DNA from: Gemella sanguinis ATCC 700632
Lineage (GTDB): Bacteria; Bacillota; Bacilli; Staphylococcales; Gemellaceae
Direction: 5' to 3'
Length of the DNA: 64,000 nt
Assembly: GCF_000701685.1 (NCBI RefSeq)
Contig: NZ_JNJO01000002.1
Coordinates: 62,001-126,000, forward strand
Shown: piece by piece, positions 16,571-18,648 of the stretch
How positions within the stretch are numbered: the first letter of the stretch is position 1
Layout of the letters: each line of letters begins with the position of its first letter
Program-made: the position numbers and the translations under genes
Notes under the pieces: generated by a model
Told to the model about the DNA's origin: nothing
Databases searched by the model: none
The model's input: only the letters and a program-made list of their open reading frames with translations

Positions 16571-16670
16571 TCCTTACACTCCAATCTATAATATATTTCA
16601 TTCTAATTATAGTAAAAGTAACTAAAATCAAGTTTAAAGAACTAATATTATTTACATAACTTACCAAAAT

Positions 16671-16705
16671 TAATGAAGTAAGTTTTTTGTAACCTTACTT
16701 CATTA
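16671..16705 (-). terminator. Terminator five bases after the distal TAA of the arsM-like gene
   Basis: A 12-bp perfect stem (taatgaagtaag / cttacttcatta). Its position relative to the TAA at 16711-16713, rather than the TGA at 16882-16884, supports 16711 as the true gene end. Confidence 0.8.
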
Positions 16706-16710
16706 TAAGT

Positions 16711-17466
16711 TTATTTTCTACCAATTAATAAACCACTTTGGATATAGTCTTTCATCCCTTTACCATAACCCCATTTTTCAGCATATTCATCTGTTACATC
16801 AGAATTAATAATTTGGAACTTTGTAAATCCTGCTTTTTTTATTATATTCGCCATCTCTTCTTCCAGAAGAGCACCTGCAACTCAAGTACAGTACAGCTTT
16901 TCAGAGTTTTTCCATTCTGTTGGTAATTCTTGTTTAAGAAGAATATCAGATATTACAAACATACCATCATCTTTTAGTATTCGATATATTTCATCATATA
17001 CTTTTTGTTTATCAGGTTCTAAGTTAATAACACAGTTACTTATTACTCTATCTACTGAATTATCTTCTAAAGGAATATCAATTAATTCTCCTTTTATAAA
17101 CTCAATGTTATCGAACTTCTTATTGTCTCGAACTTTTTTAGCTTTTTCTAACATAGAATCTAATCTATCAAGCCCATATAAAGTTCCTACTTTTGGATTT
17201 TTCATCTTTGTAATAAAGATATCCATTCCTGCTCCACAACCTAAGTCAATAAGAGATTGACCTTCTTTTATTTTCAAATGATTAACTGGGTTTCCACATG
17301 ATAACCCCATATTAATTTCGTCAGGAAACTCATTAATAATTTTTTCATCATAACCTAATGACTTACTTAGTTGTTTAGGGTCAATTTTAGTTTTTTGTTT
17401 TTTCTTTGAAATATTATCATAAAAAGAATCTACAGATAATCTAATTTTTAAATTATTATTTGACAT
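16711..17466 (-). CDS. arsM: ArsM-like arsenite S-adenosylmethionine methyltransferase with in-frame TGA (candidate selenoprotein)
   Basis: Read through one TGA (16882-16884), the gene encodes 251 residues, close to the bacterial ArsM core length. It has SLGYDEKII, GLSCGNP (Cys57), the SAM motif DLGCGAGMD (74-82), SNCVINL (Cys145), SDILL, LYCT-[TGA195]-VAGALLEEE, then KKAGFTKFQI and a C-terminal WGYGKGMKDY segment. In ArsM proteins the residue before V-A-G-A is a conserved Cys, so TGA replaces a Cys codon by a single base change. The start at 17466 has AGGAGG eight bases upstream. ArsM methylates trivalent arsenic using SAM and cysteine thiols. Candidate SECIS: see 16855-16871. If TGA is not decoded, the product is a 194-residue truncation and the gene is a pseudogene. 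A selenium or other substrate is also possible. Confidence 0.72.
16855..16871 (-). promoter_or_regulatory. Candidate bacterial SECIS hairpin downstream of the in-frame TGA
   Basis: On the transcript, CUCUUC pairs perfectly with GAAGAG around the loop UGGAA. The loop begins 16 nt after the UGA and its second base is G. These satisfy the published bacterial SECIS rules as I know them (a short stem, an apical loop of 3-14 nt, G among the first two loop bases, 16-37 nt from UGA). The stem also encodes LLEEE, so chance pairing cannot be excluded. Confidence 0.5.
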
Positions 17467-17487
17467 GCATCTTCCTCCTCTAAGAAT

Positions 17488-17562: not shown

Positions 17563-18648
17563 TTACAGCTTAACGATTTCTCTATATCTAAATGTAGGAT
17601 TTGGTCGTCCAGGAATAAGTGCATTAAGTTTTTCTTGTTTATAACCTACAGCACTGAATACTCTTTCTACTTCTTCTTTAACTATTTCTACTAAAGTATC
17701 TGGGTGCACTTCAACACGTGCATTAACTGTTAAGTACACATCATCACTTTTACTATCTAGAGTACGTAAACTTCCAGTTTCTTTTTTACCAACGATATTA
17801 CCTACAATACCTTCGTTTTTACCTTGTAATAAGAATTTAACGTGTCCTACGTTTAATCCTTGTGAGTCAAAACGTTCACCTAAATTAGCTAGAAATGCAG
17901 CCGCAAGTTCATTGAAGTTTTCTTCTTTCGCTACACTATATGTTCCATTTAACCAACCAAATAGCGCTTCCCCATCAGCATATGTATCATAGTCAACTTC
18001 AACTATTCTACGTCCTACTTCTTTTTCACTATTAACGATATAGTTAAACCATTCATCTAGTCCTTCACCAGTTTTAACACTTGCTGTAAGTACATTTTCA
18101 TTGTTGAATTCTTTTTTAGTTTGTTCTACTAATTCAGATAACTCAGCTTCTGATAATAAGTCTGTTTTATTAATTAAGATTACATCTGCTTCTTCAAATT
18201 GTTTATAGATAATATAATCTCCAGGATTTGAGTGATCTTTTAGTACAGCTCTTAGGCGAGTTGGATCTGCTAATGCTGTTAATTGTTTTAAATTAACTTT
18301 ATCGCTATATTTTTCTTTTAATGGTTGCATAATTGTTGCAGATAAATCTGTACAACTACCAACAGGTTCAGCTAAAATAATATCACTGTTATTAGCTTCT
18401 TGAAGGTGTGCAATTGCTTCAGCAAATCCACCAAAGTTACAGCAGAAACAGCTTCCACTTACTTCTTCAACAATATCATTATTTGTTTCTAAAAATGAAG
18501 TATCTACTAATTCACTAGCTTGGTCATTAGTAATTAATCCTACTTTACGTCCTTTTGAGTTCAAACGTTTTGCAACTTCCCATAAAAGACTAGTTTTCCC
18601 AGCTCCTAAAAAGCCACCTACTAAAATTAAATCTGTTTTGTTTGACAT
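17563..18648 (-). CDS. CobW/COG0523-family metallochaperone GTPase
   Basis: A 361-residue G3E GTPase. Walker A GGFLGAGKTS lies at residues 11-20. The metal-binding CxCC signature of the family appears as C67-F-C69-C70 in GSCFCCNFGG, followed by AEPVGSC (Walker B-type region) and NKTDLL for guanine specificity. The C-terminal half lacks the canonical His-rich tail. It ends with RVEVHPDTLVEIVKEEVERVF and a GRPNPTFRYREIV segment, as in a COG0523 subgroup often annotated P47K in anaerobes. Such proteins deliver zinc or cobalt-type cofactors to client enzymes. It lies between glpF (45 bp upstream) and arsM (about 100 bp downstream), all in one direction. The client is unknown. Confidence 0.85.
   Translation of the reverse strand: MSNKTDLILVGGFLGAGKTSLLWEVAKRLNSKGRKVGLITNDQASELVDTSFLETNNDIVEEVSGSCFCCNFGGFAEAIAHLQEANNSDIILAEPVGSCTDLSATIMQPLKEKYSDKVNLKQLTALADPTRLRAVLKDHSNPGDYIIYKQFEEADVILINKTDLLSEAELSELVEQTKKEFNNENVLTASVKTGEGLDEWFNYIVNSEKEVGRRIVEVDYDTYADGEALFGWLNGTYSVAKEENFNELAAAFLANLGERFDSQGLNVGHVKFLLQGKNEGIVGNIVGKKETGSLRTLDSKSDDVYLTVNARVEVHPDTLVEIVKEEVERVFSAVGYKQEKLNALIPGRPNPTFRYREIVKL

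Follow-up and report, generated by a model that had tools for sequence, protein, structure and literature searches.

A predicted selenocysteine-containing ArsM-like methyltransferase in Gemella sanguinis

Gemella sanguinis ATCC 700632 carries an ArsM-like gene that is interrupted by an in-frame TGA. Here, we argue from sequence comparisons that this TGA is almost certainly decoded as selenocysteine (Sec), yielding a selenium-containing relative of ArsM. The gene lies in the 64,000-nucleotide stretch of DNA that was analysed (the window), which belongs to contig 2 of a 1.80-Mb genome rated 100% complete. We put at roughly 90% the probability that it encodes a short-ArsM-type selenoprotein of 251 residues, in which UGA 195 is decoded via SelB and a stem-loop, and which acts in metalloid methyl transfer. 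The Sec coding, its conservation, the fold and the ligand positions are supported by computed evidence.

Results

The reading frame runs on the minus strand from the ATG at 17466-17464 to the TAA at 16713-16711. These 252 codons (16711-17466; MSNNNLK...LYCT*VAGALLEEE...LLIGRK*) contain one in-frame TGA, codon 195 at 16884-16882, and 56 sense codons separate it from the TAA, as the first-pass annotation had described. That the full-length frame is the coding sequence is supported by its orthologues and by dN/dS. A Shine-Dalgarno sequence, AGGAGG (17474-17479, minus), stands ahead of the ATG. Inspection of the sequence beyond the distal TAA shows a terminator-like 11-bp inverted repeat, AATGAAGTAAG...CTTACTTCATT, followed by TTTT and a T-run (16666-16704, minus); the terminator had been noticed before, but it begins 6 nt past the TAA and not five. 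Across all 64 kb, no TGA other than that at 16882-16884 links an open stretch of at least 150 codons to one of at least 50, and TGA is therefore not generally reassigned in this DNA.

An orthologue was found in all nine congeneric genomes searched. Codon 195 is TGA in eight of them, never TAA or TAG in these eight species, and TGT in the ninth (G004). The seven other congeneric TGA proteins are 84-93% identical to the window protein, and a more distant relative (G014, 59% identity) has TGT at this codon. Among 109 further relatives, the position is TGA in 9 and Cys in 100; the nine come from Tissierellia, Falseniella, Clostridium, Faecalicatena, Paraclostridium and one further Firmicute. Position 195 is thus Sec or Cys in every aligned relative and never Trp. 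Synonymous sites are highly diverged among the eight TGA orthologues, and their pooled dN/dS falls from 0.069 upstream of the TGA to 0.044 downstream. Together with the conservation of the TGA, these values argue that the gene is neither a pseudogene nor truncated.

In a maximum-likelihood tree of 118 proteins, all 17 TGA rows were grouped with the Cys rows of G004 and G014 (support 80/96), so that the Firmicute Sec clade holds two Cys rows and the tree needs three Sec/Cys label changes. This topology is most simply read as a single gain of Sec that would have been followed by two reversions to Cys, apparently independent of each other. Both reversions (L019 in G004, L021 in G014) go with loss of the hairpin described below, and both genomes keep the Sec machinery.

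Just 3' of the UGA is a candidate bacterial SECIS apical stem-loop, CUCUUC-UGGAA-GAAGAG, at 16855-16871 on the minus strand (loop 16861-16865). Its stem of 6 bp begins 10 nt and its loop 16 nt from the UGA, and G is the second base of the UGGAA loop; in stem, loop and spacing to the loop it agrees with the hairpin proposed at first pass. When protein sequence and local codon usage are kept as they are, a stem of 6 bp or more is expected at this exact position with a probability of about 0.013 per sequence, and the fold z-score is -2.0. Taken alone the hairpin is modest evidence, and its weight comes from being conserved together with the TGA. A stem recurs at the same place in all eight TGA genes, and the codons that encode it (GCT CTT CTG GAA GAA GAG ATG) are the most invariant seven-codon stretch of the gene. 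Six of the seven are identical across the eight genes (p 0.00045 for that place by shuffling). One of the six is CTG, fixed here although only 1.3% of the Leu codons in the window are CTG. The only change, GAA to GGA in G003 (E-to-G), retains a U.G pair. The TGT gene of G004 specifies an almost identical peptide, AILEEE, through the codons GCT ATT TTA GAA GAA GAA, which form no hairpin, and a hairpin was also absent after the TGT codon of G014. Among the congeneric genes and G014, the stem-loop is therefore present where the codon is TGA and missing where it is TGT. The nine distant TGA relatives have stem-loops 15-20 nt downstream of the TGA, and the mean stem is 5.7 bp in distant Sec relatives versus 3.9 bp in Cys relatives.

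The first-pass annotation had seen no sel genes, which holds for the window but not for the genome, as the Sec machinery lies on the same contig, 55-70 kb past the window end. Genes for selB and selD stand in one cluster with yedF (YedF), a DUF3343 Se/S carrier and a cysteine desulfurase; selA was found in the genome (5.9e-157), as was tRNA-Sec (selC) with a TCA anticodon. A genome without these genes would have spoken against a selenoprotein; with all four present, that reading stands.

The idea that the ArsM-like gene is the sole Sec client was rejected, since at least SelD, GrdA, GrdB, PrdB and a PrdC-like protein are also read through TGA. SelD itself is TGA-interrupted (CGG-U-NSKIGPG) in all 11 genomes read. 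In G. sanguinis (G000), its frame, MSEKKMNMIVCGG-TGA-NSKIGPGALSDIL, extends upstream on the minus strand of contig 2 (L010:14655-15602), and its hairpin also has a G-rich loop 16 nt from the TGA. ORF callers begin selD at a downstream TTG, and the N-terminus is lost. A second region (L206 and L207, contig 14) holds GrdA (CFVUTAAG), GrdB (UGTC), PrdB (UGTC) and the PrdC-like protein (CQDUTN), and their in-frame TGA codons are retained in the congeneric copies read. These four are selenium-dependent Stickland genes; G001, G005 and G006 have no full-length GrdB match and keep a shorter PrdB-like one. Searches for a molybdopterin oxidoreductase (formate dehydrogenase) and for SelU found neither above cut-off. 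With the full machinery and these other clients, the organism is equipped for selenoproteins regardless of the ArsM-like gene. One genome of a sister genus (G010) has a selA fragment only (L053, G010:C1:30910-31143, a 109-codon frame) and no tRNA-Sec, and G011 and G012 have neither; this pattern would reflect a recent loss of the Sec trait.

The protein matches Pfam PF13847 (113 bits), and its AlphaFold model has a pLDDT of 93.6. Its fold is that of a class I SAM methyltransferase, closest to ArsM: sequence and fold comparisons alike find their best PDB matches among ArsM enzymes (best Foldseek match E 5.7e-18), and the structural match to 4fr0 covers 210 residues at 2.5 Å with a Z of 24.6. 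Alignment to the crystallised enzyme CmArsM (4kw7, 4fr0) places U195 (16882-16884, motif CTUVAGA) at Cys224, Cys145 (17032-17034, ISNCVINL) at Cys174 and Cys57 (17296-17298, GLSCGNP) at Cys72, all three codons being on the minus strand. Cys145 is invariant in both of our alignments (A1 and A2). The N-terminal Cys44 of CmArsM has no equivalent in the alignment. A further conserved residue, Cys193, gives a CTU motif that is missing from CmArsM.

The first methylation by CmArsM requires Cys72, Cys174 and Cys224 (PMC6950371). As summarised in the same article, the only Cys residues required by the ArsM of Bacillus sp. CX-1 are Cys145 and Cys195 (Huang et al. 2018). Taken with the alignment, these requirements, the latter as given in that summary, would place Sec at one of the two most important residues.

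Discussion

We have described an ArsM-like gene whose in-frame TGA is shared with most congeneric relatives. The proposal that it is a candidate selenoprotein, made in the first-pass annotation, is supported by our results: the genome has the sel genes, relatives in the genus mostly carry TGA together with a conserved hairpin, and dN/dS downstream of the TGA is about 0.04 and not near 1, so that the sign of a pseudogene is absent.

How Sec may be used is suggested by the position it takes in the fold. UGA 195 would be decoded by SelB and Sec-tRNA-Sec, aided by the stem-loop just downstream. Sec195, at the position of the As(III) ligand Cys224 of CmArsM, could hold a trivalent metalloid with Cys145 and Cys57, and the metalloid, most likely arsenite, would be placed beside S-adenosylmethionine for methyl transfer. 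Being more nucleophilic and reducing, the selenolate may favour binding of the metalloid or its re-reduction between methyl transfers. In this scheme, we infer both arsenite as the substrate and the catalytic role of Sec.

It is possible, though we think it the less probable case, that the protein is a selenoprotein that acts on something other than arsenite. It could then methylate selenium, a different metalloid, or some small thiol or organic compound, and Sec would serve either as the nucleophile or as a ligand to metal. Scored with Cys in place of Sec, the protein reaches 227.8 bits against the arsenite methyltransferase model NF008823, below the curated NCBIfam cut-off of 263 bits. The closest kin (the proteins of G004, G014 and L084) also fall below it, whereas Sec forms from clostridia, Falseniella and Faecalicatena exceed it, at 282-312 bits. 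Acr3 and ArsB were searched for across the genus and none was found, nor are there ars genes beside the ArsM-like gene; an arsenic role is thus without genomic context here. The Cys orthologue of G014 begins 12 nt past selA and closes the sel cluster (L064:9817-11970, contig 4), a layout that suggests that the two are co-transcribed and would fit a link to selenium, although such adjacency may reflect co-regulation only. The extra conserved Cys193, in a motif not found in CmArsM, points the same way.

On the other hand, the three thiol positions of the As(III) site are all kept, one of them as Sec, the fold best matches ArsM, and two distant clostridial Sec-ArsM genes are near or beside a gene for an ArsR-family regulator. 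Arsenite is therefore the likeliest substrate, with others possible; because of the score below the NF008823 cut-off and the lack of Acr3 and ArsB in the genus, we infer it rather than assign it. A further speculation, and a rather improbable one, is that the Gemellaceae-type CTU branch has left bulk arsenic detoxification for the metabolism of selenium or another metalloid; its enzyme might, for instance, be a selenium methyltransferase that itself depends on selenium.

The neighbouring genes encode a CobW/COG0523-type metal GTPase with a CFCC motif (17563-18648, minus, directly upstream; Pfam PF02492 and synteny), an MIP channel and a two-component system. The CobW gene is adjacent in 5 of 9 congeneric genomes, and for this reason we regarded it as a weak functional clue.

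That the TGA is a recent nonsense mutation, leaving a pseudogene or a truncated protein of 194 residues only, is suggested by the interrupted frame itself, and we reject it for practical purposes. The TGA is common to eight species and is never replaced by TAA or TAG, purifying selection is strong downstream of it, distant relatives have TGA at the same codon, and the genome has a full Sec system. That the TGA is simply read through, or stands for Trp or Cys in an altered code, is just as improbable, for this idea has nothing in its favour beyond the open frame, while tRNA-Sec with a TCA anticodon and SelB are present, Trp never occurs at position 195 in aligned relatives, and the single TGA junction of its kind in 64 kb led us to reject general reassignment. 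Decoding as Sec is thus the reading we adopt.

Sec-containing ArsM is already known. An 'arsenite methyltransferase' with a UxxG motif is a listed bacterial selenoprotein family (PRK11873/NF008823; PMC9312934, PMC13188914, PMC5029168) with 41 proteins in 39 organisms (PMC5029168), and its verified entry WP_011987699.1, motif UxxG, cites Fomenko et al. 2007. The Gemella protein resembles this family in having a single Sec in UxxG (here UVAG), in the kind of machinery and stem-loop that accompany it, and in falling within the same Firmicute clade as the clostridial members. It differs in that its branch is at most 45% identical to those members and scores below the NF008823 cut-off, in the extra Cys before Sec (CTU), and in a genome without Acr3 or ArsB. 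The novelty lies in the branch itself, which is divergent and of the Gemellaceae type, scores lower than the curated ArsM threshold and occurs in genomes without Acr3 or ArsB. We found no Gemella entry for the family in the literature library, and the case that the gene is a previously unremarked member of it is convincing.

Other known enzymes are related at a greater distance. CmArsM (PDB 4fr0, 4kw7 and 6cx6) and human AS3MT (8xt7) are the best structural matches, and Cys72 and Cys174 of CmArsM are conserved with Sec at the position of Cys224; unlike them, the Gemella protein has no Cys44 equivalent and no C-terminal domain (251 residues versus about 380). In the two-Cys ArsM of Bacillus sp. 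CX-1, as far as it is described in the summary cited above, Cys145 and Cys195 look equivalent to Cys145 and Sec195 by numbering, not by alignment; that enzyme has Cys and not Sec, and a counterpart of Cys72 is retained in the Gemella-type protein as well. The families NF041536 (ArsM_DUF2284_UU), NF041537 (ArsM_AhpD_UU) and NF047649 (MTase_UXPK_star) share an ArsM-like domain with a UxxG Sec, but they have extra domains and further Sec, whereas the Gemella protein, which scores far below all three cut-offs, has a single domain and one Sec.

We would like to point out that annotation pipelines would end this gene at codon 194, which the reading of the TGA as Sec corrects. We found no paper in the literature library that links Gemella with selenoproteins, and SelD, GrdA, GrdB, PrdB and the PrdC-like protein would give a fuller selenoproteome to a genus lacking a selenoprotein report in that library. 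With Cys in place of Sec and the hairpin gone, the orthologue of G004 would serve as a naturally occurring test of the contribution that Sec makes to catalysis by ArsM.
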